Shown: piece after piece, positions 21,828 to 29,057 of the stretch
How positions within the stretch are numbered: the first letter of the stretch is position 1
How the letters are laid out: every line of letters starts with the position of its first letter
Source of the DNA: Geothermobacter ehrlichii
Lineage (GTDB): Bacteria; Desulfobacterota; Desulfuromonadia; Desulfuromonadales; Geothermobacteraceae
Reading direction: 5' to 3'
Assembly (NCBI RefSeq): GCF_008124615.1
Contig: NZ_VNIB01000001.1
Span: forward strand, 310,001 to 374,000
Length of the DNA: 64,000 nucleotides
The notes under the pieces: generated by a model
What the model was told of the DNA's origin: nothing
Seen by the model: the letters and a program-made list of their open reading frames with translations, nothing else
Databases searched by the model: none
Made by a program: the position numbers and the translations under genes

Positions 21828-24200
21828 CTACCAGCTTTTGCCGCCGTGGCACTGGATGTTGCTGCAGTTTTTGCCGTCATAGCTGCCAACCCGGGTCGAG
21901 CCGCCACCGATAGTGGCGGCGGGGTCGGTTTCGAAGGCCGGCGTGGTCAGGTCGCCGAAGTGATTGCCCATCTTGGCTGTGTTGTGGCAATCGGTGCAGG
22001 CGTAGCCCTTGCTGATGTGCTTGGTGTGCTTGCCCGAGTTGTAGCTGTTGTACTGGCTGGTGCCGGCAGCGTGGCAGCTCGTGCACTGGCTGTCAACGTT
22101 GATGCTGCCGCTCCACCAGTCGGGCGTCGTCCTGCCGCCATGGCAGATGATGTTGCTGCAGGTTCCGTTCAGGTTGTCGGTGGCGACTCCCCCCTGGGCG
22201 TCGTAGGCGGCGGGGAAGCCGAGGTCGACCTGGCCGTTGTGATTGGCGCCGGTATGACAGACGGCACAGTCCGTCCCCACGCCCGGCAGGGCCTTGTGGG
22301 CCGCATGGGCGCCGGCGGTGTTCGGGGACGTGTTGCCGTTCGGCGGCTGGCCGTGGCAGGCGGTGCAATCACTGTAGTTGCCGCCGGTGTTGCCACCCGA
22401 GCCGGCGGGCAGGGCATCGGCGATCGCCTGCACCTCGGCCGCGGTCAGGGTGCTCAGGTAGCCCATGCCGCCGATATTGCCATCGATGGCGCTCTGGATC
22501 TGGCTGGCGGTACGTCCCGCCTTGCTGCTGCTGGCCAGGCTGCCGTGGCAGGAGGCGCAGTTGTTGGCGTAGAGAGTGGCGCCGTCCGGCTGGGTTGTGC
22601 CGCCACCGTTTCCGCCGCCGGTGTTGCCACCCGAGCCGGCGGGCAGGGCATCGGCGATCGCCTGCACCTCGGCCGCGGTCAGGGTGCTCAGGTAGCCCAT
22701 GCCGCCGACGTTGCCGTCGATGGCGCTCTGGATCTGGCTGGCGGTACGTCCCGCCTTGCTGCTGTTGGCCAGATTGCCGTGGCAGCCGGCGCATTCACTG
22801 TTGTAAAGAGCGATTCCATCCGGTGGCGTGTTGCTGTTTCCACCGCCGGCGTTGCCACCCGAGCCGGCGGGCAGGGCGTCAGCGATTGCCTGCACCTCGG
22901 CCGCGGTCAGGGTGCTCAGGTAGCCCATGCCGCCGATATTGCCGTCGATGGCGCTCTGGATCTGGCTGGCGGTTCTTCCGGGCTTGCCGGTGCTGGCCAG
23001 GTTGCCGTGACAGGCGGCGCAGTTGCTGGCGTAGAGGGTGGCGCCGTCCGGCTGGGTTGTGCCGCTGCCGGCATTGTCCCCGCCGCCGGAATTACCGCCG
23101 ATGCCTGTCTGCAGGCTGTCGGCGATCGCCTGCACCTCGGCCGCGGTCAGGGTGCTCAGGTAGCCCATGCCGCCGATATTGCCGTCGATGGCGCTCTGGA
23201 TCTGGCTGGCGGTTCTTCCGGGCTTGCCGGTGCTGGCCAGGCTGCCGTGACAGGCGGCGCAGTTGCTGGCGTAGAGAGCCGCACCGTCTGGCTGCATGCC
23301 GCCGCCCTGCCTCTGCATGGCAATGTCTTTGACGGTTTGCGGCAACTGGTTCATGACCGTCTGCATCTGGCCGGTCAGATCGCCTGGCTGAATGCCGCCG
23401 TTCTGCATGCCCGTTTTGGCCTGGTTCACCAGAGTATGGGTCTGCTCGACCATGGCCAGGATGATGTCGTCGAGGAGAACCGGGCCGGTCAGGTTGGGGT
23501 CGCTGGCGAGAGAAGAAGCCAGCTGGTCGATTTGCCGGGCATTGAGCATGGTCCTGATGGCATCGGCCATCTCCGTGACCAGGCTCTGGTCGGTGCCGGT
23601 CGTCAGGTCGGCCGGAGTCAGATCAAAGTTGTTTTTCGCTTCCAGCACGGCATTGACCGTCATGCTGGCCTGCAGCAGGGCGAGCTGGGTGTCGCTGACG
23701 CTGCCGGTACCGGCAAGGGGAGCCATGGGATCGTCGTTGATCTGGTTCGCCGTGATGGCGATGCCGGCATTCCGGCAGAGCTGGACCACCTCGTCTTCGC
23801 TGGCACCGTTGGCCACCAGGGTGGTCAGGGGTGAGACGACCAGGTCGCCGTTGGCCCCCTGAGGGACTCTGGCCTTGACCATCCCGGTGTAGGGCGTCAG
23901 GCCGTGGTTGCCGCGTTGCGAGACCTTGATACGCACGATCGAGCCTGCGGTCAGGGGACGTGCGAAGGAGAAGCGGCCCTGTTCGTCGGAAGGCGTGGAA
24001 GCGCGTTGCAGAACCGTTACGCCGTCGTCGGCGATTTCTTCGAAGACGGCGCCGACGATGTAGGGATCGACAGCGATGCCGCTGGTCGATGCCGTCAGGC
24101 CGGTCGTGCCCGAGGACGTCGAACTGCCGCCACCGCCGCAGGCTGCCAGAACGAGCAGCAGCCCGGCTGTCATCAGCCAGCTGATCAGGTGTTTGAACAT
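21828..24200 (-). CDS. Decaheme c-type cytochrome lipoprotein with four tandem single-heme modules
   Basis: Predicted 790-residue lipoprotein. The signal peptide ends in LVLAAC (Cys about residue 21), then GGGGSSTSS. A carboxypeptidase-regulatory-like/helical region reaches residue about 300. Four near-identical cytochrome c modules follow, with CAACH (residue about 314), CAACH (394), CAGCH (470) and CASCH (548), each with the GGMGYLSTLTAAEVQAIAD helix. The C-terminus adds CTACH, CAVCH, CTSCH, CTDCH and two CX4CH sites (CSNIICH, CSNIQCH), the pattern of the GSu C4xC/C2xCH family. Ten hemes are predicted. ATG 24200 has AGGAG eight bases upstream; the open frame further upstream is not needed. 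Probable outer-surface or periplasmic electron carrier in respiration of extracellular acceptors. Confidence 0.93.
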   Translation of the reverse strand: MFKHLISWLMTAGLLLVLAACGGGGSSTSSGTTGLTASTSGIAVDPYIVGAVFEEIADDGVTVLQRASTPSDEQGRFSFARPLTAGSIVRIKVSQRGNHGLTPYTGMVKARVPQGANGDLVVSPLTTLVANGASEDEVVQLCRNAGIAITANQINDDPMAPLAGTGSVSDTQLALLQASMTVNAVLEAKNNFDLTPADLTTGTDQSLVTEMADAIRTMLNARQIDQLASSLASDPNLTGPVLLDDIILAMVEQTHTLVNQAKTGMQNGGIQPGDLTGQMQTVMNQLPQTVKDIAMQRQGGGMQPDGAALYASNCAACHGSLASTGKPGRTASQIQSAIDGNIGGMGYLSTLTAAEVQAIADSLQTGIGGNSGGGDNAGSGTTQPDGATLYASNCAACHGNLASTGKPGRTASQIQSAIDGNIGGMGYLSTLTAAEVQAIADALPAGSGGNAGGGNSNTPPDGIALYNSECAGCHGNLANSSKAGRTASQIQSAIDGNVGGMGYLSTLTAAEVQAIADALPAGSGGNTGGGNGGGTTQPDGATLYANNCASCHGSLASSSKAGRTASQIQSAIDGNIGGMGYLSTLTAAEVQAIADALPAGSGGNTGGNYSDCTACHGQPPNGNTSPNTAGAHAAHKALPGVGTDCAVCHTGANHNGQVDLGFPAAYDAQGGVATDNLNGTCSNIICHGGRTTPDWWSGSINVDSQCTSCHAAGTSQYNSYNSGKHTKHISKGYACTDCHNTAKMGNHFGDLTTPAFETDPAATIGGGSTRVGSYDGKNCSNIQCHGGKSW
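22410..23290 (-). repeat. Four tandem DNA repeats encoding cytochrome modules
   Basis: Near-identical units with offsets of 234, 228 and 240 bp between successive copies (78, 76 and 80 codons). More than 40 bp around the AAEVQAIAD/GGMGYLS coding block is identical in all four. Linkers of Gly/Asn and TTQPDG differ in length. The high DNA identity suggests recent duplication or gene conversion. Confidence 0.9.
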
Positions 24201-24676
24201 AGAGAGAACTCCTTTCGTTCCGTTTGCTCGGACAGGCCCGCAGGACAGATGCCTGGAAAGGGGGCGGAATTTGTCCGGCGCAATTCTGTTTCGGAAACAG
24301 AGCAAAGGGCCAGCCCAAAAACATGCCCCAGGGATTTTCGTGCGGCCAGACACAGGTGCCCTGAAACGGAATGTGCGTGTGTCGACTGTGCGCATGTGCA
24401 GCCCGCGGCGCGGCATTCGGTTGAGCGGAACCAGAATGATGACTCAACAGGTAATGATTGCTGGTGTTTGGCGGCGTCCGGCAGAAAAGAGCGATCGTTT
24501 CACTCGGCTATGGATGAACGATGTCCCGAACGTGAACGGTTGAAGGATGAACGGATGAACAGGGGAAAAGTTGTTGTCGGACGGTGATTTAGCCAGCAAT
24601 ATTTTGGCTATTTGACAACATTTTGACTCAATCTGTCCGGGGGATCGGTTGCCCGGGACGACTGTGTCTGGCCGGT
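24201..24676. other. Intergenic region upstream of the cytochrome gene, no gene supported
   Basis: About 480 bp between the cytochrome start and the first small-gene leader. It must hold the promoter of the minus-strand cytochrome gene, but I see no convincing -35/-10 pair. A hairpin TAGCCA/TGGCTA (24590-24610) is present. Long open frames here are shadows with poor codon character. Confidence 0.6.
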
Positions 24677-24770
24677 GTGGCCAGGCAGAAGGCGTCCGGG
24701 AGTTAACCTGGAGGCACCACAACAAAGGAGGGGGGGATGATTTCAATCCGCATTGGCGACGATCTCCCCA
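24677..24770 (+). repeat. Small-gene leader module, copy A
   Basis: Contains GTGGCCAGGCAGAAGGCGTC, then GGGAGTTAACCTGG, then CACAACAAAGGAGGGGGG and the first 11 codons MISIRIGDDLP. It is nearly identical to copy B (25391-25487) across leader and first codons, and its first half resembles copy C (26757-26816). A hairpin CTGGCC/GGCCAG precedes it. Confidence 0.75.
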
Positions 24771-24778
24771 AAAGTTAG
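24737..24778 (+). pseudogene. Truncated copy of the 67-residue small gene
   Basis: ATG 24737 opens a 13-codon frame, MISIRIGDDLPKS, that matches the first 11 codons of the gene at 25453 (MILIRIGDDFP) and then stops. The shared leader and start show that this was a copy of that gene whose body was replaced by the unrelated 79-residue frame that overlaps it. Confidence 0.55.
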
Positions 24779-24992
24779 GGAGCGGTGCAGTCAAGAGTGG
24801 GGCAGGAACTACCGGATGGTCGAATCCTGCATCAACAGACAAAATGAAGCGAAACAAGCGATAAAGTGGTTGCGTCCACCGCCGGAGATCAAGGCCTATT
24901 GTCAAGACGAGTGGAGGACGGATTATGCCATGGTAAAATACTGCATCGAGTGGCAAAGCCAAGCAAAGCGGAACCTGGGGTACAAATACTAG
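24753..24992 (+). CDS. Small protein with two C-x-EW...C-x-Q repeats
   Basis: A 79-residue frame from TTG 24753. It has an internal repeat: CSQEWGRNYRMVESCINRQ followed by CQDEWRTDYAMVKYCIEWQ, each with two Cys, a conserved Trp, Met-Val and an A-K tail. The repeat argues that it is a real coding sequence; small proteins with this C...W..dy.M..YC..Q pattern occur in related bacteria, but I know of no function. The start is uncertain because the 5' end is fused to the leader of another small gene and the TTG sits inside that gene's codons. The four Cys could bind metal or form disulfides. Confidence 0.6.
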   Translation: MATISPKVRERCSQEWGRNYRMVESCINRQNEAKQAIKWLRPPPEIKAYCQDEWRTDYAMVKYCIEWQSQAKRNLGYKY

Positions 24993-25014
24993 AGCCAAAA
25001 GAGGTAGGGGGGGC

Positions 25015-25158
25015 ATGAACGCACAGTGCAGATCATCGTGGCAACCGGCAAAAAATGGAAACTGACGCAACTGGTCGGCTTTTTGGGGGCTGGCCATTGG
25101 AGTCGTGATGGTCGTCGGCAGTATGTCGACGGACTCAGCAACGGCGGGAAACGTGAAC
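25015..25158 (+). pseudogene. Short membrane-leader frame interrupted by an in-frame TGA
   Basis: ATG 25015 follows AGGTAGGGGGGGC. It reads 16 codons (MNAQCRSSWQPAKNGN) to a TGA at 25063-25065. The same frame then continues with RNWSAFWGLAIGVVMVVGSM and STDSATAGNVNYE, which looks like a transmembrane or signal-peptide segment with an ATA-like cleavage site. This looks like the decayed 5' end of a membrane or exported protein. Selenocysteine is possible in principle but no SECIS-like element is evident. Confidence 0.4.
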
Positions 25159-25159
25159 T

Positions 25160-25393
25160 ATGAAAGAGGGGAAATATTTCGTTGTCAAGACGCTTTCTGG
25201 CCACGGCGACAGCCTAGGCCTGGCCGGGTACAACACATTCGACGAGGCTAAGAAAGAGGTCGAAAAATGCAAGCATTGGCTGGGGTCGGTGAGAATTTAC
25301 AAGAAAATCCCGGGTGGTTTTGAGTTAGTCAAATACTATCAAAACGGAGTGCTGCACAACCTGGACGGGACAACTAGCCAGCCCAAGGCGTGA
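25160..25393 (+). CDS. Hypothetical small protein, 77 residues
   Basis: Frame of 77 residues from ATG 25160 (MKEGKYFVVKTLSGHGDS, ending DGTTSQPKA). Composition is that of a compact soluble alpha/beta protein with balanced charges and no signal or membrane segment. The upstream sequence lacks a strong ribosome-binding site. It overlaps, in another frame, the tail of the interrupted membrane-leader frame. I do not recognise the family. Its neighbours are other tiny genes with a common leader type. Confidence 0.5.
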   Translation: MKEGKYFVVKTLSGHGDSLGLAGYNTFDEAKKEVEKCKHWLGSVRIYKKIPGGFELVKYYQNGVLHNLDGTTSQPKA

Positions 25394-25487
25394 CCAGACT
25401 GAAGGCGTACGGGAGTTAACTTGGGGGCATCACAACAAAAAGGAGGGGGGAAATGATTTTAATCCGTATTGGCGACGATTTTCCAAG
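25391..25487 (+). repeat. Small-gene leader module, copy B
   Basis: Matches copy A: GTGACCAGACTGAAGGCGTA, GGGAGTTAACTTGG, CACAACAAAAAGGAGGGGGG, and the first 11 codons of the 67-residue gene. Differences from A are scattered substitutions and a 2-bp change between the G-tract and ATG. Confidence 0.75.
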
Positions 25488-25656
25488 AGAGTATGGCTCT
25501 TCCCACCAAATCGAAGAAGGCTGGGTTCTTCAGAAAATCACAGAGTGTCGGCTAGAGATGGCCCCCTGCGGAATCCAGATCAAAATTTGTCAAGACCCGA
25601 TAAATTTCATCTTTGAGTCCCCCATAGCTACAATCGGTGGAAAAGAGCGTGACTGA
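25453..25656 (+). CDS. Hypothetical small protein, 67 residues
   Basis: Starts at ATG 25453 behind AAGGAGGGGGG. The 67-residue product (MILIRIGDDFPREYG..., ending IGGKERD) has no signal peptide, membrane segment or recognised domain. The conserved start shared with the truncated copy at 24737 supports this start codon and shows that the gene has been duplicated locally. Its last codons overlap the GTG of a further 43-residue frame. Confidence 0.6.
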   Translation: MILIRIGDDFPREYGSSHQIEEGWVLQKITECRLEMAPCGIQIKICQDPINFIFESPIATIGGKERD

Positions 25657-25780
25657 CCGCCATCTCAGTAAGAAATGCCAGGCTCTTGAACTCGACGTGA
25701 GTGCGGCTTGGACGATGACCAATTTGAGCCTTGTCGGCTGTATCGAATTCCTGAAAAAGGTGGCGAAACTTCTCAGGTGA
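25649..25780 (+). CDS. Hypothetical very small protein, 43 residues
   Basis: GTG 25649 overlaps the stop of the 67-residue gene by 8 bp and opens a 43-codon frame: MTDRHLSKKCQALELDVSA, then AWTMTNLSLVGCIEFLKKVAKLLR. The amphipathic C-terminal helix and the tight overlap favour a translationally coupled gene. It is too short for most gene callers. No family is recognised. Confidence 0.42.
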   Translation: MTDRHLSKKCQALELDVSAAWTMTNLSLVGCIEFLKKVAKLLR

Positions 25781-25862
25781 GGAGAGGGGAAAGCCCCGCA
25801 TAGAGATATGGCGGCTTGGTAGGAGAGTTGTCAAACCACAAAACGGTTGAAGGGAGGGGGCA

Positions 25863-26714
25863 GTGGCAACGATACCGAGAAAAACGTGCGACAGATTTGT
25901 CAAGGAACTTGGAAAATATCAGACGGCCATCCAATCTGCTAAAGACCGAGAAATCAACGAAGCCGATACTATCTCGATCATAAAAGACATTCTGGCCGAC
26001 ATTTTCGGCTTTGACAAATGCGCTGAAATCACCAGCGAGTTCGCCAACTACAACACCTATTGCGACCTTGCCGTCAAGATCGATGGAAAGATCCAATACC
26101 TCATTGAGGCAAAAGCCGCAGGGCTCAATCTCAAAGAAAATCATCTTTGGCAGACCGTACATTACGGGGCTGCCGAGGGTATTCGGTGGGTCGTCCTTAC
26201 CAACGGCCACCTCTGGGAAATCTACAAAATTAGCTTCGTACGACCAGCCAAGGCAAACCTGGTCTGCTCCATCGATCTGCTCGAATTGACACCTTGCGCA
26301 AAAAAAGACCAGGAAAAGCTGTTTTTGCTGTGCCGTGAGGGGGTCAGAAAGGGGGCGATGGATAAGTTTGTTGAGCGCGCCCAAAGTGTGAACTGTTTTG
26401 TGGTCGCTGCCATCGTCACTAGCGCTCCGGTCACGAACGTCATCAGGCGTGAGTTGAAAAAACTGACCCCTGCTCTCAAGATTGACACTGTCGAGATCGA
26501 AGATATTCTGCGCTCAGAAGTCATAAGAAAATATGTCCTCGAGAGCGACGAGGCCAAAAAAGCATCAAGCAAAATCAAAAAGGGCTTGGCCAAAGCAAAT
26601 AAAAATCAGAGTCAAAAGGAGACGGAGAACCCATGGCCTGCTCAGGGCGAGCTGATTCTGTTGCTTTACAACGAGTATTCCGCCGGTACTACAGATCCCT
26701 ATGGAGGGGATTAG
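25863..26714 (+). CDS. Stand-alone HsdR-N-type nuclease domain protein
   Basis: A 283-residue protein resembling type I restriction R-subunit N-terminal domain proteins (HSDR_N family) that occur without helicase. The PD-(D/E)XK core is visible: Asp in YCDLAVKID (about residue 71) and EAK in YLIEAKAAG (about 83-85), with GIRWVVLTNGHLWEIY following. The C-terminal part is Lys-rich (KKASSKIKKGLAKANKN). It starts at GTG 25863 behind GGGAGGGGG. There are no hsdM, hsdS or helicase genes nearby, so it is not a classical restriction system. The catalytic triad is intact in sequence; the substrate is unknown. Confidence 0.8.
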   Translation: MATIPRKTCDRFVKELGKYQTAIQSAKDREINEADTISIIKDILADIFGFDKCAEITSEFANYNTYCDLAVKIDGKIQYLIEAKAAGLNLKENHLWQTVHYGAAEGIRWVVLTNGHLWEIYKISFVRPAKANLVCSIDLLELTPCAKKDQEKLFLLCREGVRKGAMDKFVERAQSVNCFVVAAIVTSAPVTNVIRRELKKLTPALKIDTVEIEDILRSEVIRKYVLESDEAKKASSKIKKGLAKANKNQSQKETENPWPAQGELILLLYNEYSAGTTDPYGGD

Positions 26715-26756
26715 CTTCTTCAGAGTTGAGACGATAAAAAAGCCGGCATGATCAGC

Positions 26757-26816
26757 GTGGCCAGGCAAGCAGCGTCCGGGAAAAGAACAACACAACCAAA
26801 AGGGGAGGGGGGCATG
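26757..26816 (+). repeat. Small-gene leader module, copy C
   Basis: GCGTGGCCAGGCAAGCAGCG, TCCGGGA, ACAACACAACCAAAAGGGG and AGGGGGGCATG resemble copies A and B in order and sequence, but the GTTAAC segment is missing. It leads into a different gene, the zinc-ribbon microprotein. Confidence 0.6.
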
Positions 26817-26921
26817 GCGTTAAAAAAGTGCAAAGAATGCGGTGGAAAGATCAGTAGCAAAGCCGAATATTGTCCGCACTGTGGAGCCAAGAACAGGCGC
26901 AAGGGGATTGGGCCCTGGTAA
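26814..26921 (+). CDS. Zinc-ribbon microprotein, 35 residues
   Basis: ATG 26814 follows GGGGAGGGGGGC and encodes 35 residues with two Cys knuckles, CKECGG and CPHCGA, in the order seen at the N-terminus of many small zinc-ribbon proteins (MALKKCKECG...). The usual following membrane or tail region is absent: it ends in RRKGIGPW. It could be a complete zinc-binding microprotein or a truncated remnant. It is the last gene of the small-gene islet. Confidence 0.55.
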   Translation: MALKKCKECGGKISSKAEYCPHCGAKNRRKGIGPW

Positions 26922-26981
26922 ACTCTACCGCCCGACGATCAGGGAAAAAACCAACCAGAAAATAAGCCGGCGCCCCGGCCC

Positions 26982-27030
26982 AAATGACTACACTCCCCCA
27001 AAGCCGGCAAAATGTAGTCATTTGTAGTCA
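26982..27030. repeat. TGTAGTCA/TGACTACA repeats beside tRNA-Leu
   Basis: AAATGACTACA (26982-26992) and TGTAGTCATTT (27013-27023) form an 11-bp inverted repeat, and TGTAGTCA recurs at 27023-27030. Short repeated octamers close to a tRNA 3' end are what one expects of arm-type integrase binding sites near an attachment site. No integrase gene is in the window. Confidence 0.45.
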
Positions 27031-27044
27031 ATTCCGAAAAACAA

Positions 27045-27074
27045 AAGGGGTTAGCGAAATCTCGCTAACCCCTT
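27045..27074 (-). terminator. Terminator of tRNA-Leu
   Basis: A perfect 13-bp stem AAGGGGTTAGCGA / TCGCTAACCCCTT with a 4-nt loop. On the minus strand it is followed by TTTTGTTTTT, making a strong rho-independent terminator nine bases beyond the tRNA. Confidence 0.88.
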
Positions 27075-27082
27075 GTACTTTC

Positions 27083-27169
27083 TGGTGCCGAAGGGGAGAC
27101 TCGAACTCCCACGGCCCTACGGCCACTAGACCCTGAACCTAGCGTGTCTACCAATTCCACCACTTCGGC
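27083..27169 (-). tRNA. tRNA-Leu (anticodon CAG)
   Basis: The minus strand starts GCCGAAGTGGTGGAATTGG and ends CTTCGGCACCA, with a 7-bp acceptor stem GCCGAAG/CTTCGGC, discriminator A and encoded CCA. The anticodon loop TTCAGGG gives CAG. A long variable arm (TGGCCGTAGGGCCG) and GGGAGTTCGAGTCTCCC T-arm fit class II tRNA-Leu. Confidence 0.96.
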
Positions 27170-27235: not shown

Positions 27236-28915
27236 TCAGTCATTTTCAAGGGTTGTCGCCTCGGGCTGAAGCCGCAGGGGAGACACCCGCAAAGTCCGAA
27301 AACGGCGCACTGTCACCTGTCCCGGTCGGGCTCCTTTTGTCTTGCCGATATCGCGTGTCAGGGCGCACATGACCTCGACGGATTTTTCGTCCCGGGCCCG
27401 CGACCAGCCGGCGGCGACGGCGGCGGCATACTCGAGATCGGCCTTTGGCACGTCGATGTCGCGGCTGTCCCGCCGCAGCACCAGGTGACAGCCCGGTACT
27501 CCCTTGGCGTGGAACCAGAAGTCGTGCGGTGCGGCGATCCGGGTGGTCAGGGCGTCGTTGCCGCGGCTGCTGCGCCCCCAGAGCAGGGTGAAGCCGGAAG
27601 GCGTTTTCGCCCGGTTCAGCGCCGGGGTGCCAGTGGGACGCCTGCGGGAGGCGGGTTCCCGGCAACTTGCTGCCAGCAGTCCCGCCGCCAGCAGCTCCGC
27701 CCGGATTTCGGTCAGATCCGCCGGTGTCGCGGCCTGCTCGAAATAAAGCCGGATTTCTTCCAGCCAGTCCAGTTCGTCGAGGGTTTCCCTTTGCCGGCGT
27801 TCAATGTGTTCGAGACTCAACTGGTACTTGCGGGCGAGCCGGAAGTACTTTTCGGCGTTCTGCTGCGGCGTCAGGGAGGGGTCGAGAGGAATGGCGACCG
27901 GTCCCGGCGGTTGTCGGTAGTAATCGGTAAGCCGCACCGAGGTCATCCCCTTTTTCACCCGGTGCAGCTGGGCAAGGAGCAGTTCCCCCTGCTGGCGGAC
28001 AAGCACGTGACCTTCTTTCTGAATTTTTTCCGCCTCGATTCTGACCAGCCGACGACGCAACTTCTTTTCCTGTTTGCGCAACGCCCGGTCGATTTCGCGT
28101 CGGGCATCCTCGACCGGTTCCGTACCGTTCGGGGGGGAACTCTTTTCATCGAGCAGGTGCGACAGTGAGCGGGCTTTCTTGTCGCGTTTGGCCGCAGGCG
28201 GCAGAACGACGATACGCTCGCGGCCGTCGGCCATCATGCGCACCGGGTGGAACTGCCCTGCCAGCAGTTGCCGGCGAAAGGTTTCGAGCACCTCCTGTGC
28301 AGTTTGGCCGGCCTCGACTTCCGCGGCCATCACCGCCGCCTGTGCGCCGGACATGGGCCAGAGCGTCGTTGTCAGCCAGTTCCGGAAGCTGTCGGCATCA
28401 CGGCACGAAGCGGGAATTTCCGGCAAACGTTCGAAAAGGGAGATCATCTGCCGCGCATTGGGCAGGTGATAGGGACGGCCGGGCAGCAACAGGCGGTTCT
28501 CCGTGCCTTTTCGCTGCCGTTTGAGGGCATCGATGATGCGGTCTTCGGCATCGGCCAGAACCAGGTTGCCGACCGGGCCGAACAGTTCGCAATAGAGCCG
28601 GACATCGCCTTTGGGACCGGCACAGTCGATACGAACGATCCGTTCCCGCCCCGCGCGGGCGAAACCCTGGATGCGGGCGATTCGTGCCCGCAACAGCCGG
28701 CAGAAGCCGGGAGGATGAAAGGGATTGGCGAAGGTGCGCTCGCTCAGGTGCAGCTTCGGATTTTGCCCGAGGGCCAGCAACAGGCGCAGGTTCCGCCCGC
28801 CGGTCCACAGCCGCATCACCACCAGGTCATCGGCGGGCTGGTGAATCTTTCCGACCGCGCAACCGGCGAGGGGGCTCAATTCGTGAAGCATCGCTTCTAT
28901 CTGCAGGTCATCCAT
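27236..28915 (-). CDS. rqcH: NFACT-family ribosome quality-control protein (RqcH-like)
   Basis: A protein of about 559 residues with an NFACT-N domain (MDDLQIEAMLHELSPLAG, then KIHQPADDLVVMRLW), a long coiled-coil middle (about 300-410) and a C-terminal NFACT-R domain (PHDFWFHAKGVPGCHLVLR, DLEYAAAVAAGWSRARDEK). Bacterial RqcH binds obstructed 50S subunits and adds alanine tails to stalled chains; older annotations call it fibronectin-binding. I use ATG 28915; GTG 28939 would add eight residues. It is divergent from metY. Confidence 0.88.
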   Translation of the reverse strand: MDDLQIEAMLHELSPLAGCAVGKIHQPADDLVVMRLWTGGRNLRLLLALGQNPKLHLSERTFANPFHPPGFCRLLRARIARIQGFARAGRERIVRIDCAGPKGDVRLYCELFGPVGNLVLADAEDRIIDALKRQRKGTENRLLLPGRPYHLPNARQMISLFERLPEIPASCRDADSFRNWLTTTLWPMSGAQAAVMAAEVEAGQTAQEVLETFRRQLLAGQFHPVRMMADGRERIVVLPPAAKRDKKARSLSHLLDEKSSPPNGTEPVEDARREIDRALRKQEKKLRRRLVRIEAEKIQKEGHVLVRQQGELLLAQLHRVKKGMTSVRLTDYYRQPPGPVAIPLDPSLTPQQNAEKYFRLARKYQLSLEHIERRQRETLDELDWLEEIRLYFEQAATPADLTEIRAELLAAGLLAASCREPASRRRPTGTPALNRAKTPSGFTLLWGRSSRGNDALTTRIAAPHDFWFHAKGVPGCHLVLRRDSRDIDVPKADLEYAAAVAAGWSRARDEKSVEVMCALTRDIGKTKGARPGQVTVRRFRTLRVSPLRLQPEATTLEND

Positions 28916-29057
28916 GGTCGTCAAACAGCCGGCCGCCACCTGTTGCGGTCGCGCCGGCTCTGCTATAGTCTGAACATGGTCCGGTTTGGATCATTTCACA
29001 CCATAAAACTGTAGAATTGCGGCATTTTTCTTGACTTTGTTTGTATTGTTTGCTTGA

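Follow-up and report, generated by a model that had tools for sequence, protein, structure and literature searches.

A probable remnant of an integrative element at tRNA-Leu(CAG) of Geothermobacter ehrlichii, with a leader duplicated at three gene starts

Integrases use the 3' ends of tRNA genes, and islands and prophage remnants lie integrated there; those of the DUF6538 type at tRNA-Leu(CAG) in relatives of Geothermobacter ehrlichii are an example. Phages offer a second point of comparison in the start-associated sequence (SAS) of cluster K mycobacteriophages, a 13-bp element, GGGATAGGAGCCC, positioned a few bases ahead of the start codon; the SAS and its extended form (ESAS) recur across phages, with many copies standing ahead of diverse gene families (PMC3203893). 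Here, a small islet of G. ehrlichii contig NZ_VNIB01000001.1 is compared with these systems. It occupies ~24.5 to 27.08 kb of the window (the whole 64-kb stretch of DNA analyzed), with a cytochrome gene on one side and tRNA-Leu(CAG) on the other, and carries a row of very small genes, a nuclease gene and three copies of a leader sequence. The islet is probably what is left of an integrative element acquired by horizontal transfer, most likely one end of a prophage or of a phage-like island, and the leader is read as a presumed expression module of that element.

The islet and the adjoining tRNA gene

The composition of the islet sets it apart, with a GC content of ~50% vs. ~64% in the flanks. 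An earlier note on this DNA had described an AT-richer stretch beside tRNA-Leu containing small frames, a nuclease-like gene and repeats, and all of these are present where it had placed them. Comparison with 57 relatives turned up none of the islet DNA except the tRNA terminator; genome G001, of the same genus, ends before the tRNA and was left out as an empty-site control. Foreign composition and absence at the same locus in relatives are characteristic of islands and prophage remnants, and together with the viral kin described below they support a foreign origin.

The 3' end of tRNA-Leu(CAG) faces the islet. The tRNA gene and a gene for a fibronectin-binding (NFACT-type) protein (27236-28939) form a pair that is kept in most relatives, and the sequence past the tRNA differs in each relative examined (n = 13). 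In 4 of these 13, a DUF6538 sequence, corresponding to the N-terminal portion of a tyrosine integrase of the phage type, begins <100 nt from the tRNA; one of the four (G018) also has a Phage_integrase frame, and the other three have the N-terminal part alone. In G012, a second copy of tRNA nt 19-40 (22 bp) lies 3.5 kb downstream and bounds a mini-island. These findings mark tRNA-Leu(CAG) as a hotspot of integration within this bacterial order.

Just past the tRNA, the islet contains tandem copies of the octamer TGACTACA (Table 1). This octamer occurs three times in the 64 kb, each time within 26985-27030, and the double repeat was not found elsewhere in 136 genomes of the order. The four integrase-bearing relatives have tandem 7- to 9-mers with a 12-bp step at +49 to +51 (one with a mismatch), where the chance of a tandem repeat is ~1-3% per locus. 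These repeats are proposed to be putative arm-type sites of integrases, remnant in the case of the islet. The hairpin of the tRNA terminator, GGGGTTAGCGAAATCTCGCTAACCCC, has close copies elsewhere in the same genome (G000:C2:216922 and 196046) and in about a dozen relatives.

According to the favored reading, an element would have entered at tRNA-Leu(CAG) by way of a tyrosine integrase, and the integrase and the far attachment site would later have been lost; the original integrase and the direction of this decay are inferred from what is left. About 2.5 kb of the presumed element would remain, a strip of small genes in one direction, with unusually strong G-tract ribosome-binding sites and an intact-looking nuclease gene.

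A nuclease gene with viral relatives

The product of the nuclease gene matches Pfam HSDR_N_2 at 1.2e-5, just above the cutoff, and phrog_17239 at 1.7e-72. Residues E59, D68, E82, K84, and Q97, which make up the PD-(D/E)xK pattern, are invariant in 22 aligned sequences. The AlphaFold model has a pLDDT of 86, and its Foldseek matches are weak (DrdV, the best, with E = 0.009; HsdR; Cas4). Judged by profile and catalytic residues, the gene encodes an intact-looking PD-(D/E)xK nuclease of the HSDR_N kind. It lacks the ATPase part of HsdR, and there are no HsdM or HsdS partners among the islet frames, as a type I restriction-modification system would have.

Relatives of the nuclease are found in a Thermus phage (37% identity), on Leptospira plasmids (41%), in one genome of the order (56%), and in 58 viral contigs (29-55%). 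At least 9 of 36 upstream neighbors of the viral nucleases carry a Cro/CI-type helix-turn-helix, and five carry a LexA-type peptidase domain; 15 of 35 downstream neighbors are recombinases (12 tyrosine, 3 serine). The phage counterparts probably cleave DNA that enters the cell or guard the lysogen in some other way. Temperate phages often carry this little-described nuclease (phrog_17239) next to a repressor and an integrase, and its gene is a natural candidate for a prophage defense gene.

Two side observations concern these relatives. In viral contigs L107-L164, the HSDR_N-type nuclease (phrog_17239) recurs beside temperate-phage repressor and recombinase genes. In G048, two paralogous small genes of ~100 codons, whose products share GENF.F...G..RKFGF..RR, lie upstream of the nuclease copy (L085:285-743 and 1749-2090).

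The islet might instead be a compact multi-gene operon for anti-phage defense or of the toxin-antitoxin type, with the nuclease acting as effector and the small proteins serving as regulators or antitoxins. A restriction-type nuclease with conserved catalytic residues fits such an operon, as does a weak PADLOC match of the nuclease to a type IIG enzyme (4e-7), and defense genes often sit at tRNA hotspots. However, the small frames match no known defense system, and the phage relatives of the nuclease do not share the islet's small genes. An operon of this kind is considered improbable.

The leader and the genes behind it

The three leader copies, all on the plus strand, are matched by a 77-position sequence model at 24673-24744, 25386-25461, and 26753-26822, with E = 3e-21, 2e-22, and 4e-16, respectively (803 kb searched); these values are no independent test because the model was built from the same three copies. 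Comparison with shuffled sequences bears out the earlier note's claim that three small frames start behind one leader: the alignment of copies 1 and 2 scores 128.5 vs. a shuffle maximum of 41, that of copies 1 and 3 scores 54.5 vs. 39, and copies 1 and 2 are the top matches of copy 3 anywhere in the window on either strand. Each copy ends at a start codon and overlaps the Shine-Dalgarno sequence. In all, five starts in the islet, those of the three leader genes among them, have a G-tract Shine-Dalgarno.

Copies 1 and 2 are 85% identical across 93 bp, and this identity passes the ATG into 11 codons (MISIRIGDDLP and MILIRIGDDFP). The earlier note's statement that a different gene follows each time therefore holds for the gene bodies and fails for the first codons, which copies 1 and 2 have in common. 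Copy 3 is shorter. Its first block, GTGGCCAGGC...GCGTCCGGGA, and its start-proximal block, ACACAACCAAAAGG.GAGGGGGGcATG, match those of the other two, and the middle block (TTAACyTGG) is missing, so that the constant order of blocks described earlier is found only if this gap is allowed. Ahead of the ATG, 54 of 63 positions are identical between copies 1 and 2, and after it 28 of 33 (86% vs. 85%). Divergence at the same level on both sides of the ATG points to duplication of a gene start that later became attached to another body.

Outside the islet, the leader was sought in three forms. As DNA, it was not found elsewhere in its own genome, in 98 relatives, or in 277 genomes of the class; as patterns, it was not found in IMG/VR or in 84,980 genomes, where scans for exact patterns would miss diverged leaders; and as a profile, it was not found elsewhere in its own genome, in 395 genomes of the phylum, or in the collected viral loci. 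The N-terminal peptide pattern shared by copies 1 and 2 is likewise missing from the viral contigs. Every match outside the islet was weak or short. Those in the same genome that were read sit within ordinary genes, and the 21 in the 84,980 genomes and the seven at class level are short and do not span the leader; all were put down to chance. One of the rejected short matches is merely a similar Shine-Dalgarno. Within the limits of these searches, the leader is unique to this locus.

This result bears directly on the idea, put forward in the earlier note, of a cassette system in which a conserved 5' module is kept while bodies are exchanged. One leader with different bodies at three sites is what such a system would give. 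The earlier note had itself named confinement of the leader to this locus as evidence against exchange, and since the leader was found nowhere else in any of the collections, including the other genomes of the group, the cross-genome form of the idea is refuted. No recombinase, attC or other recombination site was seen in the islet, and copies 1 and 2 share coding sequence past the ATG. Given this shared coding start and the equal divergence, the locus is better explained by a local duplication, with later divergence or replacement of the sequence downstream, than by a transferable cassette, which is very unlikely.

The three leader copies show no conserved RNA fold (z = -2.5, +1.2, and +0.9, respectively), and Rfam gave no match to a known family. 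A plus-strand scan placed no sigma-70 promoter in it, and a sigma-54 match, looked for by eye, was not found. The leader is described as a duplicated translation-start module on the basis of its anatomy, and its role in translation is inferred. It would consist of an A/C-rich, probably unpaired stretch followed by a very strong G-tract Shine-Dalgarno and a start codon. The gene start would have been copied locally, in the case of copies 1 and 2 together with its first codons, and different bodies would have been fused to it or placed after it.

A more specific proposal is that the leader is a functional, factor-bound sequence of a phage family, similar to SAS/ESAS, that stands ahead of several small genes and recruits an element-specific translation or transcription factor. 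Three same-strand copies at start codons keep blocks outside the Shine-Dalgarno (GTGGCCAGGC, GCGTCCGGGA, and ACACAACMAAA), and this anatomy parallels that of the cluster K mycobacteriophages (PMC3203893). However, the leader was found in none of the other genomes and phages searched, it shows no conserved fold, and no selection on it is visible because copies 1 and 2 diverge equally in leader and shared codons. Such a factor-bound leader is rather unlikely. It is also doubtful that the leader acts as a gene-start module specific to the element, an analogue of SAS outside the mycobacteriophages, that copies itself with its first codons and captures bodies; if so, it would spread within a phage genome, making new small proteins with a common N-terminus.

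The frames behind the leader differ in condition. The ATG frame of copy 1 stops after 13 codons, and the coding signal goes on in the +1 frame as the body of 79 residues. Compared with copy 2, a C-run in copy 1 is longer by one base, which shifts the frame off this body and may reflect decay, misassembly or programmed frameshifting. The 33-residue motif of the 79-residue frame is also found in two viral contigs, in one C-terminal copy in L184 and two tandem copies in L185, and it ends the protein in both. Weak genome matches of this frame proved to be chance in the cases inspected. Farther along, at 25016-25170, the coding signal lies in the 25026-25163 frame and then in the 25105 frame, which carries a hydrophobic stretch. 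The frames of 67, 77, and 47 residues have some coding signal and no relatives were found for them. The 35-residue protein behind copy 3 matches Pfam Zn_Ribbon_1 at 2.6e-5, just below the cutoff, and PHROG families at up to 1.8e-9.

The islet could also be a neutral relic, in which a gene start was duplicated in tandem by chance in decaying phage DNA, and leader and small frames are now idle. The disrupted frames after copy 1 and at 25016-25170, the evenness with which copies 1 and 2 have diverged, and the loss of the integrase are consistent with idleness, which is possible but on the unlikely side: the nuclease, 67-residue, 77-residue, and zinc-ribbon frames are all open, strong ribosome-binding sites precede the nuclease, 67-residue, and zinc-ribbon starts, and the start-proximal blocks are retained in copy 3 despite an unrelated body.

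Two further observations were made on repeated sequences. In viral contig L184 (1548-2200), two successive genes begin behind one shared sequence, which encodes xxCPYSV and is another duplicated gene-start sequence, in this case in a virus; ahead of the second gene lies CTGTCCCTATAGTGTAAGAC, which by eye resembles a T7-like promoter on the opposite strand. The cytochrome-like gene adjoining the islet (21828-24199, minus strand) contains nearly four tandem 234-bp units at 22380-23294, with an 86% match, each unit encoding a domain with a heme c motif (CAACH).

Table 1. Features of the islet and the adjoining tRNA gene (window positions)
Feature	Positions	Strand	Basis or remark
Leader copy 1	24673..24736	+	Sequence model, repeat alignment
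13-codon frame MISIRIGDDLPKS behind leader copy 1	24737..24778	+	First 11 codons homologous to start of 67-aa gene
79-aa frame	24753..24992	+	Two tandem 33-aa motif copies (C-EW-NY-MV-C-Q-A)
Probably broken small gene	25016..25170	+	Coding signal changes frame
77-aa frame, coding-like, orphan	25160..25393	+	Codon-score frame signal
Leader copy 2	25386..25452	+	First bases overlap stop of 77-aa frame
67-aa protein MILIRIGDDFP..., orphan, behind leader copy 2	25453..25656	+	
47-aa frame, coding-like	25637..25780	+	Overlaps end of 67-aa frame; codon-score frame signal
Nuclease gene, 283 aa, HSDR_N / PD-(D/E)xK	25863..26714	+	GTG start behind GGAGGGGGC
Leader copy 3, middle block missing	26753..26813	+	Sequence model, alignment
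35-aa zinc-ribbon protein behind leader copy 3	26814..26921	+	Pfam Zn_Ribbon_1, PHROG
Third, inverted TGACTACA copy	26985..26992	+	~20 bp beyond tandem pair
Tandem repeat TGACTACA-NN-TGACTACA	27013..27030	-	52 and 62 nt past tRNA end; 10-bp step
Intrinsic terminator hairpin of tRNA	27045..27074	-	Close copies elsewhere in genome and relatives
tRNA-Leu (CAG), presumed attachment site	27083..27169	-	ARAGORN, Rfam tRNA

Comparison with described systems

Several points weigh against an origin of the islet in an integrated phage-like element. Neither an integrase nor a transposase was seen among the frames of the islet, just as the earlier note had reported. A second attachment site was not found: no 11-mer of the tRNA occurs within 27 kb, and the far side of the islet has no second copy of the tRNA core. 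G014, without a recognized integrase frame nearby, also has a tandem repeat at +51, so that repeats of this kind might be left over from other elements or serve another role. (In that genome, GTTGCAGAT stands in tandem 51 and 62 nt past tRNA-Leu in L067, which possibly marks another relic at the same tRNA.) The nuclease has no repressor upstream at this locus, its relatives are also found on Leptospira plasmids and, in G048, next to ordinary genes, and its phage neighbors were drawn from a sample of IMG/VR only. For the function of the leader, the evidence is its anatomy. The islet is a real, if mostly ordinary, relic. The duplication of its leader is a curiosity and a small worked example of a gene start copied and attached to new bodies.

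Among known systems, integron cassettes share with the islet a row of small, promoterless-looking genes, whereas the islet repeats are 5' leaders that end at start codons; there is no integron integrase among the islet frames, and attC sites were not seen, although no dedicated attC model was run. The nuclease of Thermus phage Riverbug (XKB90104.1) is 37% identical to that of the islet over 253 residues, with similar length and the same catalytic residues. It is encoded directly behind a LexA-like regulator and two genes ahead of an integrase, whereas the islet nuclease lies among orphan small genes. Like SAS/ESAS, the leader is a repeat that overlaps the Shine-Dalgarno and ends near the ATG of different small genes in one orientation. 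Unlike them, it has a sequence other than GGGATAGGAGCCC, is longer (~65 nt), was found in three copies at one locus and in no phage, and in two copies includes shared codons.

The closest likeness is to tRNA-integrated islands and prophage remnants, such as those in relatives at the same tRNA. The islet differs from these in having no integrase or second attachment site and only 2.5 kb left, and it is called a remnant because these parts are missing while the position and composition are those of an island. It is like them in lying at the 3' end of the tRNA gene, in its foreign composition, its absence from relatives and its viral gene content, and in its tandem, putatively arm-like repeats at the same distance from the tRNA.

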